In this document: in pieces, positions 4,429-42,310 of the stretch
Numbering within the stretch: the stretch's first letter is position 1
How the letters are laid out: each line of letters begins with the position of its first letter
DNA from: Xiphophorus maculatus
Taxonomy: Eukaryota; Chordata; Actinopteri; Cyprinodontiformes; Poeciliidae
Direction: 5' to 3'
Assembly: GCF_002775205.1 (NCBI RefSeq)
Contig: NC_036453.1
Location: forward strand, 3,995,103-4,059,102
DNA: 64,000 nucleotides
Notes under the pieces: generated by a model
Told to the model about the DNA's origin: nothing
Seen by the model: the letters and a program-made list of their open reading frames with translations, nothing else
Database searches by the model: none
Translations under genes and position numbers: made by a program

Positions 4429-5082
4429 ATATGCCATTGGTAAAGTGCTGACAAAAATTTCTTACGGTTTTATTCAGGGATCCTTTTTTCTAATTTTTTT
4501 ATTTTATTATTAAACAACTTAAAATCATGTACACATGATTTTTGTAGATAACACATCTGGATTTAGTTTTTTTGAAGGTAAATGTGAAAATGGACCAAAT
4601 ATTATATTCACTCATTTCATTTAAAATGAACAAGAATACAATGTGAGAATAAAATAAAACTGTATGTTTCACTGTATGTTCTATTTTATACCGCTTTTAA
4701 TACTGCGTCTCATTTGGGGACTTATTGGTTAATTAAATTGTATTTCTTTGACTGCTGACATTTGATATACTTGCATTCATCGTTCCCTACAATTTACAAT
4801 GAGCAATAATGTATCTCTGTTTTGATCTTTGTCTTCTTTTTTTTCTTAGACTTTATTTTTGGAAAGAGTCTGATTATATATCTACATGTCTCATTATTTA
4901 GTATAAAACAATTTATTTTATATATTATTTTTTCTTTTTTAAATGTTGACATAAAGCTTTATGGGACATTTCATGTAGATAAATGTGTGTTGTGAAATTA
5001 TGTCTTTGTATGTTTAGCAGAAATTGCACATTTTATATTTAGATAATTTTTTTGTGTAAAGACACTTAAGGTGCTGTGGTTT

Positions 5083-14705: not shown

Positions 14706-14729
14706 TTTCCAAAAGAAACCCCAACAGCC

Positions 14730-21420: not shown

Positions 21421-24400
21421 TTAGACCTGCACAGGTAGCTGAACATTATGGTCTGTGGATGGGAGCAAAGCAGGGTCCGTGTTTGGCTCTTCTGTTGGCA
21501 TATTCTGAGTCCAGATGCTTCTGCTGCTCGATACGTCTGCTGAAAAATCCTCTGAACTGCAGCTGATCATGTCGAGGAAACATCTGGAGAACTGAGAGAA
21601 GCACAATGAGGGGAGAAACTGTACAGACAGTAAAGATGGTACAAGACAATTTACATCTGGTATGAAAGAAACGTTTCAAGACGTGAACAATGATTGGGGT
21701 TTAGTAAGATTTAAATGACACTTATTTCACAGCCCACATCTGAGCTTTTTGGATTACAAAATGTTTGAAATATAATTCAGGAGAAAATATGGTGGCAGGG
21801 TTGGGTTATAAAACAAAATCCAAAACTGAATATAACAGAGCACTGTTCAATCATTTGTCTGATGAAGAACAGGTTTCCAATAGAGATTCTCCTTTTGAAC
21901 TGCAATAAGAAACTTTTGAACCAAAATAAAAGTATTTAAATATTATTTCCTCTAAGACCTCTGTTTAGTATGTTGGTTTACTCAAGATCAAAACTGAACC
22001 ATGTGCCCCTCATGTAAAATGCTGTGTTTAAAATTAACTCTACACCTCACCCCTCTCTACTGTAAACTATGGTGATGGCAGCATCATGCTGTGGAGCTGC
22101 TCAGAGTTGATGGAAACATTAATGTAGCTAGAAACAGAGAAGAGCACCTAAACACAATTTCCACTGTGGAACATGGAAGTGGCAGCATTATACTGTGGGT
22201 ACACCAAAACCAATGTTCCAGTTTCCTTCCAGCATGAAGATTTATAGCCAAATGTATGGAGCTAAATTGGGGCCATAACGTTAGTTCAAAAGAAAAATAA
22301 TCTGAAACTTAAAAAAATAAAGATCTTGAATCTCAAAAAAAGTTTCGAACAATTTTTTCAGTTCAGACTTTTTTCTTCGGTTTCAAGACATTTCAGCTTC
22401 AAATATTTTTTTCAGTTTCAGACTCTTTGAATTTCAAAATAATTTTTCAGTTTCAAATCTTATTTTTTCAGTTTTAAATATTTTTTCAGTTTCAATGTTT
22501 TTTAAATTTGAAATCTTATTTTTTCTCTTTTAAATTTTTTTTTCCATTTCAAACTTTTTTCAGTTTCAAAATAATCTTTTAGTTTCACATCTTTATTTTC
22601 AGTTTCAAATTTACATTTTTTTTTGTTTCAAATCTTTTTTTTTTCACTTTCAAATCTTTTTGTTCAGTTACAATTTCTTTTTTTTTTTGTCTTTTGTACA
22701 AAGTTTATGGCCCCAATTTAGCTCCATACAAAGCACCCAACAGATGATTACAACAAACACACTTGTGCTCTCTTACCTGGTTGTTGAGCAGCACACATAT
22801 GACCGGATTGAGAACGGTGCTGGTCTTCGCCAGCAGGGCGGGAATCAAAGCGGCTGCAGGCGGCACCGCTCCTGGCCGTCCGAACGAGGCAAGCATCGCC
22901 ATAACGGCGTATGGAGTCCAGCACAGCAGGTAACCTGTCACCATGGCGACCACCATCAGGAGGATCCGACCCTCGGCCTGCGACTTGTTGATACCAGCCG
23001 CCTGGTGACACACGAACCACCGCTGGTGAATTGAAGGAAAGGTCGATTCCTTCAATTCACCAGAACTTGACCTTTAACAAGTTAAAGGTCAAGTTCTAAG
23101 CAGACCTGTCTCATCACGCCTCGGACCGCCAGCAAGATCCGGCCGTAGCAGAAGAACATGAGCAGCAGAGGCAGGAGGAGGCAGAAGACGAACAAGCAGA
23201 TGATGTAGGAACGGGCCGTGACGGAGCGGCGCCGCCACTGGACGGAGCAGACGGTGCCGGGACCCTCCGGCCCGTAACTGCTAAGAGACGGGTATGTTAG
23301 GAACCAGATAGCCACCAATCTGAAAGTCCATTAGACAGTTTTTTGATTTGTATTTAGTTTAATCAAACATAATCTGCCTCTAAGCCTGCCGCAATTACAA
23401 AATTTGCTGGGTGATAAATATTACGATAAACCATAATAATGTTGTTTTGATACCATTTTAAATGATAATGGCATAATAGTGCAAGTACACATAAACTTTA
23501 AATTCTAATAAACTTTTAATAAAATAATCAAAATAAATAAACAAAACAACAGATTCTTTCTGGGATTTTTTTTTGCAATAAAATAAAAATGTTTGTGGTA
23601 CTAACTTGGAAATATTTGCACTTATTTATGATGATAAATGCAGCTTTTCGTTACTAGCTGTATATATTGTGGACTGTAGCTGACATCAGTAAAAGCTGTT
23701 TAGTACAAGTAAAAACGTTTTTGACAAGTTTTGAGAAAAATCTGCAATAAAATGACAATTACTAGCGCAAAAAAGTGTGGGGATTTGCTGATTTTGTTTT
23801 AATTTCCATGATAATTCTCAAAAAACTGGAGGGACTGATTGGTATAATTTGGCAGTAAACAGATAAAAACTGCATCGATTTGATTGATAACATAATATTT
23901 AAGCTCACTTAGTGTTTAATCTAGAATCTTAGGGCAACATAAAAAGCCATGGTGGGCCAGATTTGGCCCACGGGCCTTGAGTTTGACACATGTGGTGTAA
24001 AGTGAGAACTGCTGGGTTAAATACAGCGATAATACAGACCTGCTCCAGCCCAGCAGTGGCGGTAAAGTCCAGGCCAGTGAGTAGAGCCAGGAAAACGCTA
24101 CGGAGAGTCTGGCTCTGCGATAATGTGAGGAGTTGAGCTGGGAGCCGCTGAGCGTCATGGCGTACCGCTCAAACGACAGCAGAGAGAGAGACACCAGAGA
24201 AACGACTCCTGGCAGGCAGACACAGTGGAGAAATCCATAGCAATATGAGAACAAAGCCACACAATAACAAGAAGTTGGGAAATTTGACTACTCTTCTACA
24301 TTTTAATCAAAAATAGTAATTTGTATGAAAAATATTGCACTTTAAACATGGTGAACAAATGGTTCACCATGTTGCTCTTGGACATCTCAATAAATAGGTT

Positions 24401-27400
24401 AACGTTTATCCAACCATTTTCAGTATGATATAAAAAACATACTCTTTTTTTCATACACTAACTTGGAAAATAACTTAATTTGTTACATGTAGTCAAATTA
24501 AATTTGTCCAACTTACTTTTTTATGTTTGTTTAACATGGCAACTTAATAAACTTAATATACACTGTAAAAATAATTAGGGTGGTTAAACTTAAAAACTTG
24601 AGTTCAACAGCTGCCTTAAAAACACAAGTTAACACAACTTGAAATAATGTTTTTTTCCAACTTAGGATGGCAAGCTAGAAAACTAGACCAATTGCTGATA
24701 ATTCATTGATTAAATATGATACCATAAGTTGAAATGACTAACTATAGAACATTATTCATTCTCAAAAAATTGAGTATTCTTGTCAAGCAAAATTACAATC
24801 ATATTCTATTTGAACTCAAATAATTAAGTTATACCATTTGTCTAACTAATGAATACTAGTTGTATGAACTTCATACTCCGAGTTTAAACAACTTGCAAAG
24901 TTACATTAACCATTCAAAAAAACTTGTTTTATTTTGTTAAAATAGCAAGCAATTATATATACTTTCAACTCTCATTTTAAAGTTAAACTGACTAACTGTA
25001 TTCATACCAATTCCCTTTTTGAGTTAATTTAACTCAAGAGTTTAAGGCAGCTACTGAACTTCAAATTGCAATTTAAGTAAACTAACATTTCCAAATATTG
25101 CTCACCTTCTCCACTAATAATGCCAAGTTCACCAGTTTCCTAAAAATAATTACACAAAATGCAGTTCCATTTCAAATATTATACATTTATTTTTAACATT
25201 CTCTATCAAAAAAAGAGACAAGCCTTAAATCAAGTGTAAAAGAAAACATTTGTTCAAGACCATCAGAAGTGTTGACATTTATTGAAGGACCAAAACAGAA
25301 ATTAATTTTTTGACAAATAACAGAAATATATTTTTTTATATAAATCTCAAATAAATGCACTTAAAAGCACCAATTAAGAACTTTACCTAATGTTTTATTG
25401 TAAAAAATTTTGTTTTTACCCTTTGTAACATTTAGTGCATAGAACAAACTGAACAAATTCTTACAGGAACTCTTATTTAAGAAAACAAAACTGTAAACAT
25501 ACCAAATGTTACAGTTTGTACCTCAAGATTTTGTTTCTCAAACCATGTACTCGAGCTGAGGCCTGGTCTGGTCTGATCTTCATCACCACTCTCTGAAGAA
25601 ACTCAAACGAATACTTCATGTCATTTGTATACTTGAGATTGATACAGTAGATGACACCCATAAGCATAGCAAAGCCAAGTGTCACATCTTTAATGTTGTG
25701 AAGCACAATGGTCTCCTCCACCACAACTGCCACGTCGAAGACCTCGTGTGGGATGGCCCCCAGTTCACTACCTTCACAGGCAATCAGGAGACCAACCTGC
25801 ATCCCCTTCATGGCATCATCCAGAATATCAGCATGAGCCTTAAAAATAGAAAAGAAATAATGACATTTGTGTGCAAGTAAAGAATGCAAATACTCAGTTA
25901 TTTTTAAACTGCAAGTTTTTATGCTATTGTGAAGTTTAACAATCCACATGTTTTGACACTTGTGGGGTTGTATGATGCACTTCTGTTTAGTCAGAGAATA
26001 CCCTGACACACACTCCCAGTTTGACAAAGCATAGAGCATAATGGCAATGAAACAGGCCACTGTTGTGGATGAGGCCAACATCAAGAAGCATTAGACATTG
26101 AAAATAAGTCCCACCTGAAAAAAAGCCAGTTTATGTGTGCATATTCAACATATTTTCAGCACTTTACTTTGTCATCAGGTAGTCCTCCTTTTTGACAAAC
26201 ATTTTTCATCCACAGAACTTGTATTTTCATGCACATGAGCACAGTGTATGGCAGATTAAAAACCACCATTGTGAAGCGCTGAAATTATTCTAAAAATGTA
26301 GGACACTAGAAATGTTTCCATTTAATGCATTTTTTAAATCATCAAATTCTTCAAATGTCAAAAGAAATGAAAGAAAATGCAAATCAGGCATGTTTCCATC
26401 AACTGGCTTTGAGCAAAATCAATCAGGACAGACGAAGTAATTACATCAGAATTTGATGTTATGCATGACTGTAGCAAACAGGAAGTAATGTCTCTTAAGG
26501 ACTAAAAATAAGTTTTTGCAAACACAAATACTACAAAAAGATTTTTAAGAAATTATAGCAAGAAAGAGAAATAGGTAAATATGTAAATAGTCTTTGTAAT
26601 AACATGTCTTAGTCTTACATCACACATCCTGATGACAGTTGATGGATCTTCCCCAGATATGTAGCGTGGCAAACCAAGCAGAGCAGCAGCCCTTCTCCTT
26701 TCATTCGTGTCCTGCAAGAGATGAGACATGCAGTAAGACGAATATATTTTAACAAAAATAACAAATTATGCCTAGTTTTCTAGCCATCTTCAGTTCTGCT
26801 CACATCTTTTGCAAGGCAGTCCAAAATGCCTTTGAGTGGCTGCTTCTTTTCAGATTTGGTTGCTGCTTTGTAGACCTCCAGCAGTCTCAGAACCAGGCCA
26901 TCAAGTCCGTCAAAAAAAGATTGCAGAAGGTCTGTAGTGACGATTCTTGTAAATTCTGCCCTAATCTGAGGTGATAGAATATAAAACTAGTCAGGACACA
27001 GTTAACTCAGTATTAAATCACTAAATCAATTAATTCAACTGTGCGATTACCTGTCTCTCATGGAACAGAGCAGGCCATCGGGAGATGAGCTCTGTGATGT
27101 GTGGTTGGTCTCCTACAATGTCTTTCCTACGCTGAGAAAATGTAGCAACCATCAAATCCTCAAGCAGCTGATGATTTGGGTCTTTCTTCTGCATTTCAGC
27201 CTCCATTATCTTGCGCTTCACCTCCATGTTTTCAGGACTCTGTCCTTCAGGTGGATCAGGACAGTAGTTCACCTCGCCCTTCTTTGACTTTTTGACAGTT
27301 TCCCCTTTTGAACTTCCAGATTTTCGTTTGTTTATGACCACTTCAGGGCATCCTGCTGAACTTAATTTTTGCCTGTAGTTTCCCATTTTAAATTTCAGAC

Positions 27401-30400
27401 TGTGAAACCATGAGTACCATCCCTTTTGTGACCCTGGGTCTCGCAGACAGGGATGCCTTTCCACCAGTGTTTTGGCCACATTTTCATAGTGTTGCCTGTC
27501 AGGATAAGCACTAATCTTTGACATACAGTCTGCAAGTGTGTCAAGGATATTAGTCTTCAAAGTTTTAGAAATCACCATCACAGATCCATCCTTAGCATAT
27601 CTACAATTAGCTTCTTTCAGTTGCAGCTCCACATCATGTGAAAACTTTGGAATCGGGAAGTGGTCAGGCCATTTAACAAAATCTGCACTACTTGGAGAAG
27701 AGAGGCTGCCAGTGTCCAGTGTAGAATCCGAGGAGTCATCAGCTGTGAACAATACTTTCAAAGTTGCACGGTCTACAGGAAGGTCTTTGATGTCCGTTAG
27801 GTTGCACAACTGATTCTTGAAATCAGGATCCTCAAACTGCAAAATGAATCCTCCTCTTAGGGCAAGGTTGGTTCGCAACACCTGGTACAGTTCCTCGACA
27901 CTTGAGGGGATGTCTTCAATTGAAAGACGCCTGATTTCACTTTCTGAAACTATGACACGCAGCAGCATTGTAGACAATTTAGACCTGAAAAATTGAAATT
28001 TGCACGTTAAGAATAAGTGCCTCTGGTACAGTGACAAGAAACTACATTCATGAGGAGAGACGAGACAAAATATTGGGTTAATGATAACACAAGGTTTTAA
28101 AACAACTTAAAGGAATCATCACTGACTAAATGCGGGCTGCACTTTGACAGTAAAAAAAAAAAATTTACTTTATCTTATCAATTAACGTAACTTGTTACTC
28201 AATATAACAATGAACTTAAAATAAATCTATGAAAAACAAATCAAAAAAGTATTTTAACATTTAAGATAATCAGTAACAGCATTGTGGGGCAAGGCAAATC
28301 TTTGAAATTCAAAGATTTAATTGACTGTAGTAAACTAAAATCTTACAGCACTATCATACTATGTTTTATGAGTGTTTTTATGCCTAAATTACTACTAAAA
28401 GTTATGTATTTGATAAATTTGTTAACATTACAGTATATACCCACCTAAGAGAGATATTTTTTTAGATTCCATCATCAACATAGACATTTTTAAAGTGTTC
28501 ATAAGTTGTCTAAAACAGTGTGGAAGTGCCTCTTACTCAACCAATTGGTATCATATTGGCTATGAATAACAGATAAGGGCTGACCAGCCATTTTTTAAAC
28601 CAAGAGCAAGAGAGTAAATGTATATGGGTAAGTATATGAAGTTTTCACTGTTGCCAAGTTTGTACTCTGTAATGCTTTTTAGTATTATTATGTTGAAAAA
28701 TTTCAATTAAGTGCGTGCGTATTGGCTCAAAAATAATAAAATGGGAAATAATGCTTCAGTCAAAGATGCTGTTAATTCCTCTGATGAGCAATTATGCTCT
28801 TTCAAAATATTTTCAATTTTGTGCCGAGTTAATTGTACAGCACATTGACCAACATCAAATAATTCATCAACAATTTCTTAAATTGCTGATTGTGACACAT
28901 GAAGGACTGCTTGTAGGCGAAGTAAAAGGGACGCTATCCGTCGCTGAATGAAATTTTGTTCAGGTTGAACTTCAGATTCAGGCAACAATGAATCTGATGA
29001 CATCAAAGTCTTCTTCATAATCATTTACAAAGGCTTCACTGTGACATTTTACAACAAGATCAGGTTTGAAATCAACCAATGTAGCAGCATAATGATATCG
29101 ACTCTTATGGGCAGTGAAAGTTGAGTTTACCCTTGACTTAAAAGAACACCCTGCAAATGGACAACTGACAGTCTCTAGACTTGTCAAATGTCTCTTTAAG
29201 TGAAGAAAATACTGTTTGATTTTGGTTGGTGCTGAAAAAGTACAGAGTTCACAGCGTAGTTTAGCAACTGGATATGATGTTTTATGTTCCTTGATATGTT
29301 TTGCGAAATCCACGTGGGATTTGAGAACAGCCAGACAGTTTGGGTAAATGCAGCTCAGTCCCTGTCTTCCACGTCCATGATTGTCTTTGTAATGACTCAC
29401 TATTGTTCTTTCATTGTAGGTAACAAAATTGCAAAACTTACAGCTCCACTTCATCCACAGTTTTTGCCAAACTTTAAATAATGGACCACCTGCACACAAA
29501 AAAAAAACATACATTTCAGATTATGGTATTTAAAAAAAAGTATTAATACATACGAATGCCAGTTTTGCCACTTAGTTAAAATAACTTGTCTAAATTGTTA
29601 TCTTCACCAGCTTCATTGTCCAAACTAGAGGTTCCAAAGTTTTCAGAATTTGACCCGCACAATAACAGTAACATAGACTGTCCCCAATTTATTTTAAATG
29701 ATATACCTCGATATTGGGTCAAATGAACAAGAACAGAATTCATCATGCTAGTTTAATTCATTTTAAGGTGACCCAAGCACACTCTTTAGTAACAACTAAA
29801 GCAAATTAGTAGTCATCTTTAAAATGTAATAAAATTTATAAAAGATTTTTCAGGACCTACAGTGGGGTCCTGACTACACTCTAAAAAGTGTATTTGGGCT
29901 GTAGTTCATGTTATGGACTTATTTACATTAACCTGACTTAATTCTTTTACTTTAGTTATGACAACTTGCTTTCATGAGTTCAATTAACTTAACAATCACG
30001 CATTTTATCTCAAACGAACTTTTTAATTTGAGTCGAAGTGAAACAATTAAGTTTAATGCAGCTTTACGTCTGACGTCATTACGTAAGCTCCGCCCGGGGC
30101 AAATCCTGCATCTCTGGTACCGACCGCCATTTCTTCTGAGCATTGACTGTCGACGAGATTCAGATAAAATAGTAAGTATGCTGCCCCACCATAACCAAAC
30201 ATTAAATAAACGGTGTAAAAATATTTAAAACTTTTTCTAACTTAAATTTGAAACATTGAACTGTGTTTAACGTCGAAGTGTCATCAGTTATTTGCTCTTA
30301 ACACATTTGCTAATTGTAATTAGCCGCGCTGTTCGGCGGTTCAAATCTCAACATGTTTTAACATAACTACTCTGAGTCAGACTGAATGTTTATTTTGTAT

Positions 30401-33400
30401 GTGTACTTTTACGCTAAAAAACCTAACTTGAAATTACAGAGGTGGGGGTGTTCTGTGCAAAACTAATTTAATGTGATGCAACTCCACTGTGCTAATCACT
30501 GTTAGCTGCAGCCGGTGAAGCCATTTTTTCCAGTTTTCTCATGCTGCTTACTGGCGACATAATATAAAACGCATAATATCCTGACAGCGCTAAGAATCCA
30601 TCAGGTGTCATTTCTCTTAAAAAAGCAAATTGTGTCTGTAGGAACATTGCGCAGTGTTCTAGCTAGCCGTTGATCCCCAGGCACTGGGCCGGGCTGAGAC
30701 GCCCTCGGGCTGGGCTGAGGATTTCACAGCTTCACTTTCGGAGCTCTGCATTTAGTAGCCTGCCCCACAGACTCCGCCCCGGCTAGATCGCTTCTTGCCC
30801 TGTATTATTTCTCTGCAATTTGCAATCTACCACAGCGCACGGACAGTTCACAATGTGCATGTTTGATCTCCCTATGGTCGTCCGCGCCCTTGATTTCACC
30901 GGCTACAGAAATCGAAATGACAACCGGCATGAACGCGAGGAAAAGAAAGAAGAAAAATTAAGATCAAATGAAAATTTCAGGCATTAGCATTTCTGGCTAG
31001 AACCCTGTTGTATTAACTTCTTTTACCCACTTCTCTTTCCAGGCCTAGAACCAAGAATCATCAAACCACATAAGGTGAGCCATATTTTCTTCATAAAGGA
31101 TTCATGTAATATCATCAAGCTTCTAATTTTAGAAAAAAAAGTTAAATGCAAAATGAATATGCTATTTTGATAATATGAAATATGTGTGCTCTAAAATGCA
31201 AAGTCTTCAGGATTCACACAAGTGGGGAGGTGGCTGGGGAGAGGGAAGCTGCCCTTGCAGTGGAGAACTGATTATAGTCAAATAAGCATTTTTTCCCACC
31301 AATATCTAAAGTTACTGTAATTTTTAACACTAAATAGTGGACAGATATAAAATAAGAATAGAAATGACATTTATTGTCCTTCAGTGGGAAATTTCCAGTG
31401 CAACAGCAGAAAGTGACAGGCAATTTATTCACACAAACAGACATGCATATATATTTGTGGATATATATGCACACAAAAAATTTAAAATTACAACCTAAAA
31501 ATACTGTGGAGTCATTAAAAAAAGCTTACTCCCATCCTAAGGAATATGCAACTGAGAAGGGCAATTTAAGAAATGTGTATTTGTGCATTAAAAAAATTCC
31601 TTGCAATACTAACAATATGACATTGATTAATATAGAGTGTTTTCAGTGTGGTATTAAAAACAGTGAAATAGTTATGGTAACAAATCCATTCTGAATCTAT
31701 ATTTTACCAAGCAGTAAAACAATCATCTAAAGTATTGCATGGGGCTAGGGTTGTCACAGTATTCAAAATTGACTCTTGCCTCCATATTTGTTTCATCTTC
31801 CTTGCCTTCAGATTTGGCAACATATAGGTAACAAAGTTCCTCTCTTGTCCTTCTAGTGTTGCACTTAATGTGGAGATGCAAAGACTGCAAGAGGGTGTTT
31901 TCCAGAAGATCTGAATTGCTCAAGCACTACAAACTAGACCACAGGCATTATGGACGGGGTTATTCGTATCCATGCTCATATTTAAGTTGTGCATGTAGAT
32001 TCAAGACCTGGAATGCTTTACTGAGCCATTTATCAAGAAATCATCCAGTCAAACAAACAGTTACCAAAGACTTAACCAGATTCAAATGCCCCATTTGTGA
32101 TTTTAATCAACTTTCCACTGAGAGAGATTTTTTTCAACATATATTTCAACATCTCAAGAACAAGGAAACTGTCACGTGTGTGTTTCAGGACTGTGTTTAT
32201 CAAACAAATATTTACGAGAACTACAAAAGTCATAAATACAGAAAACATTCTGACATTAGCAATACATTTAAGACTGGGATTACTGAAAAAAAACAATTAG
32301 ACTGTGGTGAAGAATTGTGTGTTAGTTCTGGTACTGATATTTTTGATCAAGACAGTACTGCACAAGCTAATCAAGATCACACATTTAATGAGACTGATTC
32401 TGAAAACTTACAGAGAGATATTGAACTTAAACTTGCATCAGTTCTTCTAAAGTTAGAAAGCAGTTTTCTTGTGTCAAATGCAGCTATTGATGAACTATTG
32501 CAGGAGTTAAACTATTTAATTGGTTCTTTGTCCCTGCCAGTTACATGCAGAACTGTAACCCAAATACTACATGATCACCTTTGCCAGTTTGACCAGTCAG
32601 TTATTGAAAAACTTGCCAGGGCCCTCTGTGAAACAAACCCTGTAAACAAAGCAATAGGAGATAAAGGCTCCCTTTCTAGTGCTTGGAGACGAAAACAATT
32701 CTATAAAAGACATTTTAAAGTGGTAGAACCTGAAGAATATATTCTTGATAAAAAAAATAATAAGTCATTCCAGTATGTATCAATCCTAAAGTCTTTGCAG
32801 CAAGTTCTTGACTGTGAGGTTATCTTGGATCAGACTGATAATTTAAATTGTGTGAATAAACTACTACAAAGAAGTAGTGTTCATACATATAGGTCTTTCT
32901 ATGACGGGTCATTTTTTAGTGAAAATGAGCTTTTGTGTAAGGAGGAGAGCATTTCATTAATATTGTATATTGATGATTTTGAAATATGCAACCCTCTCGG
33001 TACATCTAAACGGAAGCATAAAATTTGTGGCTTATACTGGATTCTTGGTAATTTGCCACAGGGGTGTAATTCTAACTTGTCTTCCATTTACCTGGCTGCT
33101 TTAATCAAAACTAATGATTTGAAGTGCTATGGTTACGAGAAGGTTTTAGAACCTTTACTTAATGAGCTTGTGATTTTGGAACAAGAAGGGGTCTTTGTGT
33201 CAAAGTTGGGTAGAGCTGTAAAAGGCACAGTTCAGTGCGTGGTTGCAGATAATCTTGCTGCCCACAGTCTTGGTGGCTTTGTAGAGAACTTCACAGGGTC
33301 ATACATATGTAGGTTTTGTTTGGCAGTTAAAACAGACATTCAAACTACAGAGGTTAGAAGTGGTGCATTTACCCTGAGAACGAAAAGCATTCATGCAGAT

Positions 33401-36400
33401 CACTTAAAAATTCTTCAGGAACGTGAATTTCCAAGTTATCAGGGTGTCAAATCAACTTCCATTTTATCACATTTATTGTATTTTGACATTACCACAGGTC
33501 TTCCTCCAGACATTGTGCATGACCTTTTTGAAGGAGTTGTTCCTTTTGAATTAGCTTTGTGTCTGGGTGTTTTGATTAAGAAAAAATATTTCACATTGGT
33601 ATCACTGAATGACGCAATAGCATCTTTCAATTTTAAGGGGACTGATAAAACTAATCGACCTCATCCAATTGCTCTCAATTTTGAAGCCAAAAAAAGTGTT
33701 GGGGGTAATGCACATGAGAATTGGAGTTTGATCAGATTTTTACCTTTGTTGATTGGACACAGAGTGCAACATGAAGAGCCAGCTTGGCAGATCTTAACAG
33801 ACTTAAGGGACATTGTTGATCTTGTGGTCTGTCCTATTCACACAGAGGACTCTATTGCTTACCTTGACTTTAAGATCTCAGAGCACAGAACACAATTCCA
33901 GGAGGTTTTTCCTAATTGTGACCTTAAACCAAAACACCATTTCTTGGAACATTACCCGCACTTGATTCGCCAATTTGGTCCTTTAGTAGCCTTATGGTCC
34001 ATGCGCTTTGAAGCTAAGCATAGCTTTTTTAAAAGAGTTGCACGAAATATCAAGTGCTTTAAAAATGTCCTCTGTTCCCTTGCAGAGAGACACCAGTATC
34101 AGATGGCACATCATTTGCATTTATCTGGTTTTCCTAAACCTCTTTTGGAAGTTACAAATGTTTCCACAGTAACAACTGATGTTCTCGACAAGGGAATAGT
34201 AAATGCTCTAAAACAGAAGTTTTCAAATCTGGCCACAGTGTGCATGACTAAAAGTGCAACATTTAATGGACTGAAGTACAGATGCGGGATGATCTTGATC
34301 CATGGCTCATTAGGAGGATTACCAGAGTTCATTGAAATAATCCAAATGGTGATCCTGGCAAACCAGTTATTCTTTCTGGTCAGAAAACTTGAGGGGTGGT
34401 ATGTTGAGCATTACAGATCTTATGAGCTGAAAACATCAGACAAAGAACTGAAACTGGTTGAGCTACAAGACCTAACAGATGTATACCCGCTGGAAGACTA
34501 CAGAATTAGAGGAATACGTCTTGTTACTGTGAAAAGATATATTCACGTTTAAGGGTGAGGTAATACAAGATTGTACAAAAAATTAAATGCGTGGTACAAA
34601 AGACTTTTGTGTTTGTATGGCTGAACTTAAAATACAGTAATATTTTAATAACTACCTTAATATTTTTTTGGCCCTCTACAAGCAAATGTCCAAACATTTG
34701 ACTAATAATGTATATAAAATATTTTGTAATGACTTTAAATAGCGACCAGCATTGCTTAACTCTGTATGTACCCTTTTCTCAGATTGTCATGGCAAGTTCA
34801 AAACCTGCAAGACTGAAGGTGATTCTAGGAGAGAGCAACACTGAAAAACTGACTCTTCCAGATGGCATACCAGACTCTCTGGATGAGCTTCTCAGCAAGG
34901 TGAAGGATACCTTTGGTTTAAAGACCAATGTCAGATTGCAATATATGGACAAAGACTTTGGTAATGACTTCTTCAACCTCCGCTCAACTTCTGACCTGGA
35001 GGACTTGGGAACAGTCAAGGTGATTCAAGAAAAAGCCATTCAAACTTTTGTTGATGTCATTGAAACAGCTCCATCTTGTTCTACAGTTCACTCTGACGAC
35101 AGCAGTTCTTTAGCCTCAAATGACACTATAATCCTCTCCTCCCCTGAACCCTTGTCATCGCGAACACAACAATGGCCAGCCAACTTTCCCATTCCCATAT
35201 TTTCATATGACACTGAACGTCAGCTAGAGAAGGGGAATTCTGAGTATCAAGCAAACAACAAAATGTTGACAGTCACCTCCCGAATGAAGACTGACATCCT
35301 AAATAGATTAGTAGAAGAGATCTACAGATACAGAGCCTACCCAGAGGATGCACAGTTCTGTGTAGTTGCAGAGGCCTTGGTTAAAAAACATCCGTGTTTA
35401 AAAGAGCCCGGTTCATTCAATGGTTGCTACGGTTGGAAGCAAAGGCTGAAGTACAAAATGGGAAACTACAGGACTCTACTCAAATCACAAGGATGTCCAG
35501 AGTTGTCTGTAAACTCTCTTAAATCCAAAGCTAGTATTTCTGTTTCTCCTGCTGCAAAAATAAAGAAGCCAAGACGAGCTGAAGCCAACTTTTATCCATC
35601 CTTTCCATTGGGAGAAACACAAGAAAGCATGGAAAAAGAGAATTGAACTCTTGGCAGCACTCAAAAGGAGGAACAATGACAGGGTCATTGCGGAGAAAAT
35701 GGCTCGTACCTTTGCCTACAGGCGTCAGGAGGTGGTGAATGAAGAACCTGGTATAGAGGATTTCAAGGACAGATGGCCTGCTCTGTTCCAACAGAAAGAG
35801 GTAGTAATGCAGATTGAAATTAAATGTCAAGGTTTTTGAACTTAGACTTTGGGAATGATTGAGTATTTACTTTAAGTAATTTTTTTTAACATAGTAATTT
35901 TTTTTTTGTTTCACAGATTAATGCGGAGTTCCAGAGGCTCATGGCTCTTCCCCTTGAGCAGACGTTCTTGGCCCAGTTGGACAGGCACTCAAGTCAGCTG
36001 ATTAAAGTCATCCAGGCCAAAGGAGGAGCAACACGTGCAAAAATGGCTGGCATCATGAGAACTTATGATGAGGTATGCATATCATCAATATGGACACAGT
36101 GAAATAAGCTATGGCCATTTACCTTTTTCCATTTAAAACAAAGAACTTAAAGTGATTAGTTACTTTCAGACTTTGTTTTAATTATAATACTTGATACACT
36201 TTCTGTGCAAAGTTGATATCATTTGAAGAAAAGCAAGTTTGCCTGTCATGTATTTCTGCTGCATTTAGTTGTTATAGTAAGTTTGTATTCTGGTTTATTC
36301 ATGAATTCAATAAAATACACCTTTCTATCCAACTTGCCAGAAACCGGTGCAATTTAGCCAAATTTTTGAGCATCTATTGCTTTTAAATTTTAACATTTTT

Positions 36401-39400
36401 AAATGTTAAACTTGTATCAATTCTATGCTGTAAGAGATCTCTTTAATGGAAAATGATATTCACTAGCTCTGGTAGATTGTGCTAAGAAAAAGCCTTAACC
36501 TTAACAATACAGTCTAGTTTCACAAATTGAGATGTGAAGGATAAAATGTGGCAGAGGTGGACTATGAATAATTTTGAAGTGCAGCATTAAAACACAGTGG
36601 ACTTGTGGGCTGTACATTATGGCATCTGATAGGTCTTTGCTATTGTGAACAGCCCAAATATATTAGTTATGTCATGAATCTCTTCAGATATGAAATATTG
36701 ATAACGATAACTTTTCTCCAGGTTGAAGACATTGGGATTCGAAGGGAATGTGTTCTGAAAGGGCTCGTCACCTTTCTTGGAGAGGATGCAAAAGACCTTA
36801 TTAAGGAATACTGTGTAAGTTTTTAAAGGTTTAAAGTTGCATCTCATCCCATTCAAGCAAATGGACAAATTCAATGTCAGTTGTTTTTACCTTCTTAAAT
36901 GATTTATGGACTGGCTTTTCTAAATGTGAACATCTGTTTGAAAAAATGGGGCAGATTTGGTGTCAGAAATGTAAATTTAACATGGCTGTATCCTGCTTAA
37001 ATCCAGAAATGGTGAATTTGCTGTTCAGCAGAGCACATCAACTTCATTTCTTGTTTACCAATATGCCAAACAAGTTAATAAGAATATGTTTTAGAGTCAT
37101 GGTATTTTGATACCAGCTCCAAAATATCTGACAAGCAACACAAATATGCATTTTGTATTGAGTTCCACCCTAAGATGACCATTGGCTGGATCAGTATTCT
37201 GCTTTGATATAAAATCTAAGAAATTGGTTTTTAAGCTAAAGCCTGTAATATGATGGAACATATATAAAGCTATATACATGTATTATCTTTTCAAAAACAT
37301 TAAAAATCACCCTTTGAGTTATTCAATTTGTAAAGCAACTTTGAACTTGGAAAATTTATCAAGGATATTTCAAATGCCGTAAACCACTCTTCAATTCACA
37401 AGCTGTACATCTTATACTTGGTGCTTACATTTACAAGGCTTTTATTTTCCAAATTCTGTAGTGAGAGATTAATTACAGTGTTCAAATTTTAACTCACTAC
37501 AGGGCAGCAGCGGAGATGATGCCCAGATGGAACTCAAACAACTCACCATGGCAGTGTTTGTGATTCGGAAGGAGGGAGAGGGATTGAAAGAACCCCCAGA
37601 AGACATTGGCATCGTCATTGAGGGAGTGGAGGTGTTGCAGGACCTGACTTCAGTTGCCTCAGCATGTGCCCTGCTTCTGGGTTTGATATATTCCCTTAAC
37701 TTGGCTTATCCAAAGGCTCTGCGCTTCACATTTGAAGTGTTCCAAAAAATCTTCATGCAGCTTGAGCAGCACAAGATGTCTCCCAAAGTTCAAAATTTGT
37801 TTGGAAGACTTCAGACCTCACAGTAAAGACACTGGCATGTTGTGCAACAGGACAGAAGATCTTCAGTCTTCTTTGTTTGGACAGAAGAACGCCATGTTTT
37901 GGAAGCTTAACACCTCAAGGAACTGCACTTTGTGAACTTCTTTTGGGACATTGTTCATATTAAAGCCACAAGTAATACAGAGTTTACTGGATAACAATTG
38001 ACCGGTATTTCTGGAGGATGTTTACTGATGAGGTTGTGATGAACATTATCATTTTGGGAGTAGGTCTTTTTTGTTTTTGACATTTCATAAAGTTACATGG
38101 TTCATCTCTTTGGTTTTGTGTGGGGAAAAAAATACAAGTTAAGGGGGAAAAATTAAAGTAGGAAAGTAGTAGGCTGCTGCAGTTTGTGGACATTTTCACA
38201 GAATTTTCTTTTTGCATTTTTTTTTAAAATTTGAATCAACAGATTTGTTCAGTGTTTTTTGAAGGAGGTTGAATGGATCTAGATCATAATGTTTACTATT
38301 CTGTTCTTTTCTGGTGTCAGTTAAATTAACGGACTTGGTTTAAACTAGGCAGCTATTACACCACATCTTTGTTTGAAAACTTGCCTAAATATTTTTTGGG
38401 TATTGCTCTTGTTTTCAGTGTAAAAATAGTCACTAGTGTCATCATATTTTATGTCAAAAACATGTTCTCAGCAAATGTTACGGTTTAAGAGTGTGGATTT
38501 TCTTTTTTAGGAGGACTTGTGTTAAATCTAAAAAAGCAAAAAATTTTTCCTGAGGAATACTTGTGTATTCTACAACCTCACACAGGGGTGTCCAAGTCTT
38601 GTCCAGGAGAGCTACCATTGTGCAACTTTCAGATGGACCCTATTTCAATACCACCTGAAGCTAATTTCTGAATTTACACACCAGCAGACATTCAGCTCAG
38701 CAGAGGCGTTGTAATGAGCAGTTCATTTGATTCAGATGTATTGGAGATGGGATGCATCTGAAAGTTGCAAGATGATGGCTCTCCAGAACTGGACTTGGGC
38801 ACCTCTGATCTAGCAGGTCGCTGAAATGTAATATCCCTTATGAAGTTTCAAAAGATTTGTGTAGCATGTTTAATGCATAATATTTTGTGAAAAACCTGTA
38901 AGTTTGTGATGTTTTCACAATAAAATTTAAAATGTTCCATTTGTGTAGATTTATTATTTTAACTGAGTGGAATTTCTGAGTAGCATGAAGGTATTTTACT
39001 CCTATTTTAAAAACTAAAATAACATGCTAAAAAAAACTTTTAAAATGATTTAAATGCAAGCTATATTTTAAGTAAAATGTGAGTGATAATTTAATTTGGG
39101 GTAGTTTAGTTTTTTAAGTTGGAACAACTTAAAATTTTGAGTTGACTTTCTATAAAATTAAGTAAGATGGATTTAAATTTTTTATTTGGAATAAAGTAAA
39201 TGAATTGATTAAGACTGACTTAAATTTGTCAAGTTAACCAAACTTAATAAATTAGGTTGGATAAAATTAATTGAATTACTTGTTACCAATTGAAGCAATT
39301 CAATTAAGTTGGATCAACTATTTTCTTTTTAGAGTGTATCTGGAAGCCACTGAGCAAAGACAAACGCTTGATAAATAATTACTGTAAAATTCAGAATACA

Positions 39401-41646
39401 GTTTAATCTGCAATTGCCGCTGGAGGTAGTTTCCTCTCTTTAACAGTGAAATTGCATTTGTCACCGTCAACCAGAAACGGGACACAGGTGCGCACCAACA
39501 CATGAAACAAAGGACACGGCTAATTACTGATGCACAGCCTTTCCCGAAGCCGCTAACTCACCTGCAGTCAGCACGTCAATGCAAAACTTTGACCAAGCGC
39601 CACATATGTGTTTCTGAGAAAGTGTACAATACAAAAATCGTGGTAGCTGCTTGTATTTTCTCTTAAGAAAAGTAGCATACTGCGTTTAGCTAGGCTCGTC
39701 TGCATTAACTAACTCGACAATTAGCAAGCTGTTGTTTTATGTCCTGTGTTTAAACATGTAACAGAGACACGAACTTTTAGCTCTGAACATATTTTAAAAA
39801 TGGATGGCATTATCAAAAAAACGACAAAAGTAGCTTACCTTACTATGACTCCAGCTCGCTTCGCATTTCAAGAAAATGTCCCGCCGAATATGAACGTCTT
39901 TGGGACAGAGGTCTTGGAAAAATTGGTATTCATCCGCGACTTTGCTTTCGACGTCCTTCATCTGGTCAGGTGGTGTTCCTCTTCTTCATTTAATATGGAA
40001 TTCTAACTGGGATGGATAACTTTATAAAGTCTGACTAAATCTTACATCATATTTAGTCCCTTATCAGATAAGGAGCGAATTTCCGGCACTATTTGTATCT
40101 CGCATTAATATTGCCAGTGGTGATCAGTTTTTATAAGATCCGGTTACCATTTTAAAACTCAGATTGTCAAGTTATGTTCACAACTTTAAATTTATGTTTC
40201 ACTGAACTGACTCACATCCTCGAGTTGAAATGCCGATAATTCAGGAAATTAAGTTGAAATTACATAACTCATTATGTTAATTGGAAGTAACTTATAGAAA
40301 AACGTTATGATAACTAATTGAGAGTATGACTTTTAACAGTGTAGAGATCTGGAAAAATTAAGAGACCACTTAAAATTGACCAGTTTCTCTGATTTTACTT
40401 TTGATATGTTTGAGTAAAATGAACATTGTTCTTTTATTGTATGAACTACTGACAACATGTCTCTGAAATTCCAAGCAAAAGTTAACTATTTATTTAATTT
40501 TTGCTTGAAAATGAGAAATTGTCAGAATAACGAAAAAGATGAAGTGCTTTCAAATAATGCAAAGAAAACAAGTTCATATTTATTTAGAAACCACAATAGA
40601 TTTTAGAAATAGATTTTTTTTTTACCTATTTTTCCAAAACAGCTGAAGTTCAGATTGGATGGAGAAACATTTAAACATTACTTTTAAATCTTGTCAAATA
40701 CTCCCCATTAGATTTAGGAGCAAACAAAAAACAAGGAAATACTCCAAACTTTTCATTTTTACATTTGTAAAAGAAATATTAAAAACCCTTATATTCTTTC
40801 ACTTCCACTTGGCAGTTATGCAAAACTTAACTTATTGTTTTGTCTTATTTCAAGTGTAGTAAGATATTTGCACTAGGAACTGCAGAACAAAATTACTTGG
40901 TAAGTTTTTGTGTTTTTGCAGTGAACGGTCAATTGACCATTCACTGCAAAAAAAAAAAAAAAAATCTTAAGTATTTTTCTAGTGCATATATCTCAGTACA
41001 CTAATTTACAAGTATTTTTCAGCAAAATATAGGACTCAATAATTCCTTAATATTGATAAAAACAACTAATTATAAGTGACGTAATCTATATAGTAGCACT
41101 TTTTAATCCTTATTAATGAACAATTGACTTAAAATTTCTTGCTGAAGTGTCACTTTAAAGTTAGTTTTGTCCTGCTAAAAGTGTACTAAGATATTTGCAA
41201 AAGTAACTAGACCAAAAATATTGATACGATTTTGTGTTTTTGCAGTTTAGGACGTTTCCAAAAAATAGTTAATTGTGCATGTCAGGATATAAAAACTTCC
41301 AGTTACCGAAGAGCGCGTTGGAGAAGCCGTACCACCGGCACCCGCAGGACCCGGTCAGCCACCTGCCGCGCACGCTGGCCGCGAAGCTGAGCGGAGTCCC
41401 GAAGAGGCAGACCAGCATGTCGCTGATGCTGATGTTGACCAGGAGCAGGTTGGCTGGAGTCCGCAGCCCAGGGTAGCGAGAGAAAACCAGGAGCAACAGA
41501 AAGTTGCCGAAGATGCCCAGGACCAGGATGAACCCGAGGGCAACGGCAACCGAGGTGTGAGCCGCCCGGCTGAGAGAGGAGTCCGACCCGGGCGGGTTCT
41601 GCTGCCCGCCGCTGAGGTTACTGTTCTGCTGAGTGTGGATCATCAT
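21421..41646 (-). CDS. tmtops: TMT-type (teleost multiple tissue) opsin
   Basis: A seven-helix light-sensing GPCR of the encephalopsin/TMT class. Five exons on the minus strand: 41646-41307, 24208-24040, 23277-23106, 23001-22777 and 21591-21421, total 1077 nt, 358 residues, all phases consistent. Recognisable blocks: GFILVLGIFGNFLLLLVF (TM1), LLVNISISDMLVCLFGTPL (TM2), RWYGFSNALFG, LSLLSFERYAMTL (E-R-Y of TM3), WTLPPLLGWSSYGPEGPGT (loop 2, near identical to TMT opsins), LLMVVAMVTGYLLCWTPY (TM6) and LLAKTSTVLNPVICVLLNNQ (TM7) with the retinal-binding Lys286. Exon 3 uses the second AG of TTAGCAG to keep GWSSYGPE. Intron 1 is about 17 kb because of two nested transposons; introns 3 and 4 hold hairpins and an inverted-repeat element. 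The paralogue number cannot be decided. Confidence 0.92.
22040..22210 (+). mobile_element. Tc1-like transposase remnant in opsin intron 4
   Basis: The plus strand reads VNYGDGSIMLWSCSEL near 22065-22115, matching the GGGSVMVWGC block of Tc1-family DDE transposases. A second related block, VEHGSGSIILWV, follows at about 22160-22197. Only these short catalytic-domain pieces remain. Confidence 0.55.
22253..22730. mobile_element. MITE-like element with 26-bp perfect inverted ends and T-rich minisatellite core
   Basis: Left end TGTATGGAGCTAAATTGGGG, continuing CCATAA (22253-22278). The right end 22705-22730 is its exact reverse complement. The interior (22290-22690) is a degenerate minisatellite of about 15-25-base units of the form CAGTTTCAAATCTTTTTTTT. 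No coding capacity and no clear target duplication. It lies in opsin intron 4. Confidence 0.75.
23023..23097. repeat. two adjacent perfect hairpins filling opsin intron 3
   Basis: Hairpin 1: CTGGTGAATTGAAGGAA (23023-23039) and its exact complement at 23047-23063, 7-nt loop. Hairpin 2: AGAACTTGACCTTTAAC (23062-23078) and its exact complement at 23081-23097, 2-nt loop. They share two bases. The whole intron is only 104 bp (23002-23105), so about 70 percent of it is fold-back sequence between donor and acceptor. Confidence 0.9.
23384..23900. mobile_element. unclassified dispersed element, copy 2, in opsin intron 2
   Basis: Starts CCTGCCGCAATTACAAAATT, TGCTGGGTGATAAAT and TTACGATAAACCATAATAAT, the reversed form of the element at 20150-20465 and 45067-45432. 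Ends near AAACTGCATCGATTTGATTG. No open frame. Confidence 0.45.
23930..23998 (-). mobile_element. hAT-type terminal fragment
   Basis: On the minus strand it reads GTGTCAAACTCAAGGCCCGT then GGGCCAAATCTGGCCCACC, the common end of a fish hAT (Charlie-like) element. Only about 70 bases remain. Confidence 0.55.
25509..27968 (-). CDS. SAMD3-like accessory protein of transposon A, open reading frame intact
   Basis: Four exons on minus: 27968-27051, 26965-26804, 26711-26619 and 25838-25509, all phase 0, 500 residues, no internal stop. The start follows acceptor TTTTTCAG near 27988. The N-terminal ~85 residues look PB1- or ubiquitin-like (LRVIVSESEIRRLSIEDIPS, then FEDPDFKNQLCNLTDIKDL as the acidic strand). 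A Ser/Thr linker follows, then WPDHFPIPKFSHDVELQLKE, HPCLRDPGSQKGWYSWFHSL and FKMGNYRQKLSSAGCPE, as in the many fish proteins named sterile alpha motif domain-containing 3-like, though no SAM domain is present here. The last exon ends in the hydrophobic conserved block VTLGFAMLMGVIYCINLKY. The homologue in element B shares order and exon layout. Function unknown. Confidence 0.85.
28600..29454 (-). pseudogene. truncated transposase of element A (zinc-finger head only)
   Basis: Starts at ATG 29454 after acceptor TTTGTGTGCAG (about 29478); open for 158 codons to the stop at 28978. MKWSCKFCNFVTYNERTIVS, CIYPNCLAVLKSHVDFAKHI, CELCTFSAPTKIKQYFLHLK and CPFAGCSFKSRVNSTFTAHK align with the four C2H2 units of element B's transposase. 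Beyond the stop another frame still encodes related sequence (QNFIQRRIASLLLRLQ, then EIVDELFDVGQ and NILKEHNCSSEELTASLTEA) with one further stop, down to about 28740. There the homology ends; the catalytic core seen in B is absent. The gene therefore suffered a frame change, a stop and a large internal deletion. Confidence 0.7.
30071..30171 (+). promoter_or_regulatory. promoter and noncoding first exon of transposon B
   Basis: A full CRE palindrome TGACGTCA (30071-30078) is followed by TTACGTAA, a GC box CCGCCC (30090-30095) and a YY1-type CCGCCATTT (30124-30132), then a donor AAAATA|GTAAGT at 30172. This is the layout of a TATA-less vertebrate housekeeping promoter. A second leader exon 31043-31074 lies between CTTTCCAG and AAG|GTGAGC. 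Both transposon genes start right after good acceptors (31856 and 34782), so one promoter could feed both by alternative splicing. Confidence 0.55.
31868..34552 (+). CDS. CACTA-like transposase with four C2H2 zinc fingers (element B), open
   Basis: A single exon after acceptor CCTTCTAG (31856); start ATG 31868, 894 residues, no interruption. Four C2H2 units at the N-terminus (CKDCKRVFSRRSELLKHYK, CACRFKTWNALLSHLSRNH, CPICDFNQLSTERDFFQHIF and CVFQDCVYQTNIYENYKSHK) probably bind the element ends. The core has the acidic blocks expected of a DDE enzyme: SLILYIDDFEICNPLG (D369/D370), CVVADNLAAHSLGGF (D461) followed by a CRFC zinc knuckle, and PDIVHDLFEGVVPFELAL (D552/E555). Then HFLEHYPHLI and LWSMRFEAKHSFFKR, conserved in animal EnSpm-type transposases. 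Assignment of catalytic residues is by motif only. No stop or frameshift was seen; the gene may be active. Confidence 0.85.
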   Translation: MWRCKDCKRVFSRRSELLKHYKLDHRHYGRGYSYPCSYLSCACRFKTWNALLSHLSRNHPVKQTVTKDLTRFKCPICDFNQLSTERDFFQHIFQHLKNKETVTCVFQDCVYQTNIYENYKSHKYRKHSDISNTFKTGITEKKQLDCGEELCVSSGTDIFDQDSTAQANQDHTFNETDSENLQRDIELKLASVLLKLESSFLVSNAAIDELLQELNYLIGSLSLPVTCRTVTQILHDHLCQFDQSVIEKLARALCETNPVNKAIGDKGSLSSAWRRKQFYKRHFKVVEPEEYILDKKNNKSFQYVSILKSLQQVLDCEVILDQTDNLNCVNKLLQRSSVHTYRSFYDGSFFSENELLCKEESISLILYIDDFEICNPLGTSKRKHKICGLYWILGNLPQGCNSNLSSIYLAALIKTNDLKCYGYEKVLEPLLNELVILEQEGVFVSKLGRAVKGTVQCVVADNLAAHSLGGFVENFTGSYICRFCLAVKTDIQTTEVRSGAFTLRTKSIHADHLKILQEREFPSYQGVKSTSILSHLLYFDITTGLPPDIVHDLFEGVVPFELALCLGVLIKKKYFTLVSLNDAIASFNFKGTDKTNRPHPIALNFEAKKSVGGNAHENWSLIRFLPLLIGHRVQHEEPAWQILTDLRDIVDLVVCPIHTEDSIAYLDFKISEHRTQFQEVFPNCDLKPKHHFLEHYPHLIRQFGPLVALWSMRFEAKHSFFKRVARNIKCFKNVLCSLAERHQYQMAHHLHLSGFPKPLLEVTNVSTVTTDVLDKGIVNALKQKFSNLATVCMTKSATFNGLKYRCGMILIHGSLGGLPEFIEIIQMVILANQLFFLVRKLEGWYVEHYRSYELKTSDKELKLVELQDLTDVYPLEDYRIRGIRLVTVKRYIHV
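34789..37826 (+). pseudogene. SAMD3-like accessory gene of transposon B, frameshifted in exon 1
   Basis: Exons 34789-35800, 35917-36072, 36722-36814 and 37503-37826 match the four exons of the element A gene. The start follows acceptor CTTTTCTCAG. The N-terminus is PB1-like (RLKVILGESNTEKLTLPDGI and LQYMDKDFGNDFFNLRSTSD). Then WPANFPIPIFSYDTERQLEK, HPCLKEPGSFNGCYGWKQRL and KYKMGNYRTLLKSQGCPE. Around 35635-35645, in a GA-rich stretch, the frame breaks and meets TGA (35644-35646); the conserved continuation RIELLAALKRRNNDRVIA is in the next frame. Loss of two bases from a GAGAGA run explains it. Later exons are open and end KVQNLFGRLQTSQ. Either a true mutation or a base-calling error. Confidence 0.8.
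38584..38815. mobile_element. hAT-like MITE inside element B
   Basis: Ends CAGGGGTGTCCAAGTC on the left and, reversed from the right, CAGAGGTGCCCAAGTC; CAGRGGTG is the typical hAT terminus. About 225 bp, no coding capacity. A clear 8-bp target duplication was not found, so the copy is old. Confidence 0.65.
40800..41247. mobile_element. two abutting MITEs with CACTGCAAAAA ends, head to head
   Basis: The first copy ends at about 40924 with TTTGTGTTTTTGCAGTG. After a spacer with palindrome GGTCAATTGACC, the second begins near 40943 with CACTGCAAAAA and runs to TTTGTGTTTTTGCAG at 41247. Both share AGATATTTGCA, TACTTGGTAAG-like and TTTGTGTTTTTGCAG blocks. The CACTG(C/T)AAAAA ends resemble those of element A, hinting at, but not proving, the same superfamily. 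They lie in opsin intron 1 close to exon 1. Confidence 0.6.
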
Positions 41647-42310
41647 TGCACTTTAACCAAAAAAGACTTAAACAGCAAAATAAACTGTATTCCCTTAAGA
41701 AAATTGACATATAATGGTGTTATATTCAGCCATAGCATAAAACACGCTGAGCTGAAAAATGATCAGGATGAAGGGAGGGACAAAACTTTAGAGCTGCTGC
41801 CAGTCCTTACTGTCCCACTTTTAATGGCACTTATTCAATTAATCCAATCTAACATTTATATAAATGCGTGGTAAAATCATCTCTATGAACGAGAAAGGGA
41901 ATGAGGAAAAATAGCAGCTCTTTCCTTATCAAAAACATGTTTTTAATTGTTCTTGATGCAATATTGCACAGCAGATTGGAGACCTCAATAAATGAGCCAA
42001 CTCCTCCATTATGCAAGTTTTGGCTGACTCGGAGGGCAGGCCAAGAATGCTCACACCCATGAGCCAAGATGCTGAGGCATTTCACTAATAGATGATCACA
42101 CTGCACTTTTGTCTCATGAAACTCTTCACTAACTGGAGTAGATTAAATAAATACTTAAAGTTCCCTGAATTTAACTGTGTGTGCGTGTTTTCCTTTTCTT
42201 CTCACAGTAGAAAATGTATTTCAATGCACCTAAAATCTAATACACATTATCTAAGTCATTATGTGAAAGCCAACCATGGTCCAGGAAGCAGTCAACGGGA
42301 CACCTTCATG

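Follow-up and report, generated by a model that had tools for sequence, protein, structure and literature searches.

Within a 64,000-nucleotide stretch of the Xiphophorus maculatus genome (RefSeq assembly GCF_002775205.1, NC_036453.1, positions 3,995,103 to 4,059,102; G000:C11:3995103-4059102 in our numbering, and referred to here as the window), intron 1 of an opsin-type gene holds two large transposons, one nested in the other, each of which carries a gene of the kind called 'SAMD3-like'. An earlier note on this DNA described the two, which we call A (outer) and B (inner), as CACTA-like elements in opposite orientation, each with a zinc-finger transposase and with the SAMD3-like gene as cargo. 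From searches of the genome (704 Mb in 101 contigs, designated C1, C2 and so on; all results of these searches are lower bounds), we find that the gene is a standing second gene of this kind of element. The features discussed are collected in the table below.

Element A, which measures 6319 bp once B and one TA are subtracted, has the ends CACTGT..ACAGTG (at 24561 and 40341), and B has the ends CACTCTAAAAA..TTTTTAGAGTG (at 29877 and 39336), with TA on either side in both cases. A joint pattern of the ends, TACACTSTWAAAA, matched the window five times with at most one mismatch, against 0.95 matches expected, and four of the five are the ends of A and B. The transposase of B is found at eight places in the genome at 99-100% identity, window included, with the frame open in seven and a stop in one. 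When both ends of the seven other copies were fetched, all seven were seen to have exactly B's ends and to lie between unrelated flanks. Five of the seven are 99.7-99.9% identical to B over 5.7 kb, and the copies on C19 and C1, measured in pieces, are 99.5-99.8% identical. Because B is nearly identical to its sister copies, the B family appears to have been mobile recently, a term to which we attach no date.

The left end of A gave 11 genomic matches including the window (seven others at 98-99% and three at 69-72%), and its right end gave 17. Eight left-end copies were fetched and five of these extended, followed later by a sixth (the 72% one). Among the first five, the right end was reached in three (C18, C22 and C2), while the C7 copy breaks off and the C19 copy is a piece only; a copy on C15, not traced through, also has a right-end match. 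All three copies traced to both ends have the ends of A. Counting the window, we therefore have 12 two-ended insertions, eight of B and four of A, in which the CACTCT ends of B and the CACTGT ends of A are exact in 8/8 and 4/4 cases, respectively. The 2-bp flanks agree in all 12 and the 3-bp flanks in none; the target duplication is TA in nine, CA in two and TG in one. The ends that the earlier note had read from the window, each with its TA flank, are upheld, and the two-ended copies elsewhere, seven of B and three of A, have the same ends.

Next to these insertions we set a survey of the two genes across the genome. It comprises 31 transposase places, which represent 35 of 51 listed matches (pieces of one gene were merged and 16 short partial matches omitted), and 38 second-gene places, from which secondary pieces, three fusion frames and the matches at C12:620020, C18:16556679, C7:26423359 and C23:29544510 were omitted. 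Of the transposase places, 23 are no shorter than 2.5 kb, and for every one of these a second-gene match lies downstream on the same strand at a distance of 0.26-0.85 kb. The transposases of the surveyed families are 29-53% identical to that of B, and the second proteins, at 21-50% identity among families, are as diverged as the transposases. Both genes lie inside B's ends in all seven other B copies, and an element on C8 likewise has a transposase and, with it, a second gene of the SAM type inside a pair of CACTGTAAAAAAA-type ends, for which equal 2-bp flanks formed part of the search criterion. C8 is the only one of four families with such a pair: under the criteria used, none was found for the elements on C11, C5 and C15. 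The second gene was thus always inside the repeated unit where that unit could be delimited in this way. At 14 of the 38 second-gene places no listed transposase occurs within 2.5 kb; these include A in the window, two derivatives of B (one on C7, one on C17) and pieces that are either decayed or unexamined. Because the gene follows all 23 long transposase matches across diverged families, we conclude that the element regularly includes it, and the label of cargo given in the earlier note does not hold. 'SAMD3-like' is the name that the earlier note and common annotation use for this second gene, and its resemblance to SAMD3 is putative.

Features of the window and of the fusion frames; coordinates are window positions unless a locus is named.
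Feature	Coordinates	Strand	Basis
Element A, CACTA-type, broken by B	24561..40341	-	ends, 2-bp duplication, relatives with same ends
TA target duplication of A, low-coordinate side	24559..24560	.	flank comparison
TA target duplication of A, high-coordinate side	40342..40343	.	flank comparison
CpG-rich 5' part of A, severed by B from the rest	39337..40341	-	CpG observed/expected 0.76-1.04, four 250-bp bins
A zinc-finger exon, open frame, remnant of transposase N-terminus	28978..29520	-	29% identity to B transposase residues 4-133
A second gene exon 1 (putative PB1-like fold and helical core)	27051..27968	-	open frame, GT-AG join
A second gene exon 2	26804..26965	-	open frame, GT-AG join
A second gene exon 3	26619..26711	-	open frame, GT-AG join
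A second gene exon 4, stop included	25509..25838	-	open frame
Element B, CACTA-type, 9460 bp, inside A	29877..39336	+	ends, 7 near-identical copies
TA target duplication of B, 5' side	29875..29876	.	empty site in four A relatives
TA target duplication of B, 3' side	39337..39338	.	flank comparison
CpG-rich 5' part of B, likely sole promoter	29877..31376	+	CpG observed/expected
B transposase, one open frame	31868..34552	+	ATG taken from translation
B second gene exon 1 (PB1 domain and helical core), frameshifted here	34789..35800	+	frame comparison with copies
B second gene exon 2	35917..36072	+	AG/GT borders, open frame
B second gene exon 3	36722..36814	+	AG/GT borders, open frame
B second gene exon 4, stop included	37503..37826	+	AG border, frame open to stop
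AATAAA, possible shared polyadenylation signal of B	38919..38924	+	sequence
Opsin-type gene exon 1 open frame	41269..41652	-	7tm_1 profile 1-68, E 8e-13
Opsin-type gene exon 2 open frame, far side of A and B	23916..24287	-	7tm_1 profile 58-126, E 2e-5
Zinc-finger/SAM-type fusion frame	L084:1766-2872 (C9:11036524 region)	+	read copy
Zinc-finger/SAM-type fusion frame	L085 (C12:1513855 region)	-	read copy
Zinc-finger/SAM-type fusion frame	C3:31528884		match only

In B, the ratio of observed to expected CpG is 1.21, 0.61 and 0.50 for the three 500-bp bins at its 5' end and 0-0.34 across the remainder, from 1.5 kb on. Its transposase begins with C2H2-like fingers, four by eye (Pfam zf-C2H2 at 21.9 bits, under the cut-off), followed by a core in the order D, D, CxxC, HD..EG, H(3)H, E. 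The frame of second-gene exon 1 has 314 residues in the window, owing to a frameshift, against 379 in all seven other copies, and six of those seven have open frames for both the transposase and exon 1. Two derivatives of B (L017, C7:633553-634281; L018, C17:19565984-19566712) have a common deletion of B bases 1109-4661 and keep the second gene, which in L018 has a stop within exon 1. Selection preserving the second gene in these transposase-less copies was considered and dropped, as the substitutions are nearly neutral: with 13 nonsynonymous and 5 synonymous changes in L017 and 17 and 6 in L018, over 791 and 220 sites, the counts reveal no clear constraint. Two further observations concern B. 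Adjacent TGACGTCA and TTACGTAA at 30071-30086, in its CpG-rich 5' part, are possible bZIP promoter sites, and an inverted repeat with 83-nt arms, 75% complementary, lies at 38583-38807, between the second gene and the AATAAA.

The second gene of A is intact, its four exons joining through GT-AG sites into one open frame, in agreement with the four-exon structure given in the earlier note. That note also placed a zinc-finger transposase in both elements, and for A this proved to be too much. A tblastn search of A with the B transposase recovered the zinc-finger part (residues 4-133, 29% identity, E 2e-12), and the sole further match was one of 18 residues at E 4, so that no catalytic core was found. 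The best other long genomic match to the A zinc-finger exon is 36% identical, and a search of the assembly, itself a lower bound, found no A-type transposase anywhere. A is not a complete element and, with its core lost, cannot make its own transposase. Neither element of the window therefore qualifies as autonomous, B because its second gene is frameshifted and A because it has no transposase core. At C1:10680413, what had resembled an A element with a transposase proved to be a 1-kb end of A (89% identical) lying next to a different type of transposase. The place C7:26421056 holds a decayed relative of A, whose pieces are about 69-84% identical and in which no transposase core was found.

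Four of the A copies mentioned above are deletion derivatives of the A type, namely C18:32506542, C22:27487654 and C2:2194851, which are two-ended and 3.9-4.6 kb long, and C7:8808100, which has one end. All four share a deletion of window positions 26900-29436 with an identical junction, which takes most of the zinc-finger exon and second-gene exon 1, and all four have about 0.75-1.0 kb near 25427 that A in the window is without. Because the junction is the same in all four, they look like a single deletion derivative multiplied with outside help, and they constitute a non-autonomous family with no visible helper.

The second protein of B begins with a PB1 domain (24.1 and 24.8 bits against a curated cut-off of 23.6), and sister families have a SAM-like exon in its position. 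For the families on C15, C11 and C8, SAM_TNK scores 21.4 bits in one (cut-off 25), 15.4 in another and not at all in the third, and their SAM-like part has no relevant match in the PDB. Exon 1 of A's second gene may encode a beta-grasp fold, of the PB1 or of another ubiquitin-like kind. We also observed a single open frame of 369-395 residues that combines a transposase-type zinc-finger part with the C-terminal portion of a second protein of the SAM type, joined in frame, possibly a regulator born of an internal deletion. Vertebrate host SAMD3 consists of a SAM domain and a C-terminal part. It is conceivable, and we put it forward tentatively, that PB1 and SAM, two unrelated domains that polymerise head to tail, have been swapped in a transposition partner that polymerises, and that host SAMD3 is a domesticated SAM-type copy. 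Such an exchange, if true, would suggest that oligomerisation is the property that counts.

We consider it likely that the overall picture is best explained by two-gene CACTA/EnSpm-type elements with a TnpA-like second protein. Behind a single CpG-rich 5' promoter, a complete element would carry the gene for a zinc-finger DDE transposase and, as its second gene, one of four exons, and both proteins would be spliced from one primary transcript, an arrangement described for Spm and SmTRC1 (PMC1636069). Recognition of the terminal repeats would fall to the zinc fingers. The second protein would act as TnpA does in maize En/Spm, binding AACTYRA sites that cluster in the outermost 250-500 bp or so at either end and oligomerising through PB1, or through SAM-like domains in sister families; the oligomers would bring the ends together and regulate the promoter; and the transposase would cut both ends and paste the element into TA, CA or TG dinucleotides. 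For the TnpA-like role itself we see about even chances. The motif AACTYRA occurs 19 times across 1400 bp from the ends of the two elements, compared with 14 times in 12,879 bp of their interior and 38 times in 47,000 bp outside. We treat its binding as a lead because the motif was chosen after the ends had been seen and does not cluster in stretches of four other families, of which one stretch only is known to reach an element end. As a general motif of the group it was dropped, since it is clustered in A and B only.

Two other functions for the second gene have to be weighed. The protein might be a repressor or an anti-silencing factor in place of an end-pairing partner, with core-less derivatives such as A and the B derivatives on C7 and C17 serving as regulators. 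Maize TNPA is described as both repressing and reactivating its element's promoter (PMC1636069), and the second gene is kept without a transposase in A, in those two B derivatives and, going only by where the matches lie, on C9 and C18. Such derivatives are, however, expected by chance, given that the core is the longest exon and that the second gene was the search query, and no purifying selection was seen in the transposase-less B derivatives; we therefore judge this explanation rather unlikely.

A captured host gene, true cargo without a role in transposition, seems to us less likely still. The usual name of the second gene is that of a host gene, many host proteins have SAM or PB1 domains, a second gene was found near only one of the eight transposase matches shorter than 2.5 kb, and change in the transposase-less B derivatives is nearly neutral. 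Against this stand the similar spacing and common strand of the second gene behind all 23 long transposase matches and its divergence, which equals that of the transposases and would not result from a separate recent capture in each family.

As to the superfamily, we aligned the B transposase with four relatives 33-47% identical to it. Invariant in all five are the first D, a DN..H with the second D, CxxC, HD..EG, PKHHxxxHYP and MRFExKH, and all five have C(2)C and H(3)H between the second D and the E. C(2)C with H(3-4)H in this interval is described as a common mark of EnSpm, Mirage, Chapaev, Transib and their kin, and the CMCT clade as having mostly CA..TG termini and duplications of 2-5 bp (PMC12730594). 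Pfam Transposase_21 (tnp2; cut-off 28.6 bits) gave 18.5 bits for the relative L074, 14.5 for L073 and 12.2 for L072, and no match for L071 or, up to E 1, for B. The ends begin with CAC as in the CACTA group, with C or G as the fifth letter and not A. The duplications of plant CACTA elements are 3 bp long (PMC4158355), a length seen in none of our 12 insertions, and those of animal relatives are 2 bp (PMC1636069), as in all 12. We file A and B as two families of animal CACTA/EnSpm-type (CMC) cut-and-paste DNA transposons of the 2-bp-duplication kind represented by SmTRC1. That they form a separate superfamily with CACT-like ends, as the ends in CACTST instead of CACTA, the 2-bp duplication and the absent or sub-threshold tnp2 match might suggest, is very improbable given that the order D, D, C(2)C, H(3-4)H, E is the CMCT hallmark, that CA..TG ends and 2-5 bp duplications are usual there (PMC12730594) and that 2-bp duplications are known in animal relatives (PMC1636069). 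One place, L074 with L068 (C22:17126801 region), has a transposase of the CMC type, and the 3.5 kb that follow it contain no recognisable second gene; this may reflect either decay of the copy or an older layout with a single gene.

The order of the two insertions can be read from A's relatives. Those on C18, C22, C7 and C2 cross the target site of B without B; the 50 bp across it are identical in C2 and match at 39 of 50 positions in C18, C22 and C7, which depart from A of the window only from 12 bases beyond the site. Since these four relatives are uninterrupted there, B was inserted into a pre-existing A: A entered intron 1 of the opsin-type gene first and B entered A afterwards. Copies elsewhere in the same genome thus back the description of nested CACTA-like elements in opposite orientation, and we regard their identity as CACTA/EnSpm-type together with the nesting of B in A as close to certain. 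The earlier placing of B, in what would be A's first intron, agrees with the order of the parts. Nested transposons, CACTA elements included, are commonplace, and the nesting by itself is unremarkable.

The interrupted gene lies on the minus strand, and its four open exons, which lie to either side of A and B, give in-order matches to Pfam 7tm_1 (profile positions 1-68, 58-126, 115-183 and 194-259, respectively), although exon 2 taken alone is under the curated cut-off. The last exon reads LLAKTSTVLNP, which we take to be the retinal-lysine motif; the opsin subtype is a putative assignment from reading the sequence. As had been noted, A and B sit in an intron of this gene, here intron 1; they take up 15.8 kb of a total of ~17 kb, as estimated from open-frame edges. 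The exons are still open, and the insertions enlarge the intron by about 15.8 kb. Beside exon 1 the same intron has two degenerate repeats with a spacing of about 325 bp (40837-41246). Elsewhere in the window, a sulfotransferase-type gene occupies 14706-16992 on the plus strand (Pfam Sulfotransfer_3 for 14706-15176), presumably resembling tyrosylprotein sulfotransferase.

These results suggest that fish 'SAMD3-like' genes may be second genes of CACTA-type transposons, and that the same perhaps applies to host SAMD3. They also provide vertebrate CACTA-type copies that are nearly identical, have defined ends and were presumably mobile in recent times, and in which the role of a little-understood second protein becomes testable in animal cells.

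EnSpm elements are known to be present in fish genomes (PMC7599744), and nested CACTA elements are ordinary; the new part is the second protein headed by PB1 or SAM. A close comparison is SmTRC1 of Schistosoma mansoni (TRC), which likewise has terminal inverted repeats, a 2-bp duplication and an accessory protein inferred to be TNPA-like; its transposase is of the tnp2 type, and proteins similar to its own have been reported in zebrafish (PMC1636069). Unlike A and B, whose ends start with CACT, SmTRC1 is 4.5 kb long with a 54-bp repeat starting with CCC, and its accessory protein comes from spliced forms and had no similarity elsewhere in the account given there, whereas the second gene of A and B is separate, has four exons and is PB1- or SAM-headed (PMC1636069). 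Maize En/Spm shares the genes for a transposase and a second protein between short CACT-type ends and the single transcription unit, which for A and B would be the likely arrangement; plant En/Spm differs in its CACTA ends and 3-bp duplications (PMC4158355, PMC1636069). ESTA, of the CMCT lineage, is fungal and has a TET/JBP gene in some families, and the available text on ESTA and CMCT lineages makes no mention of a PB1 or SAM second protein (PMC12730594). Enlarged En/Spm elements are described from the red alga Chondrus crispus; they resemble A and B in carrying more than a transposase, one or two open frames being called usual, and differ from them in their 16-20 kb and four to five open frames (PMC6431247).
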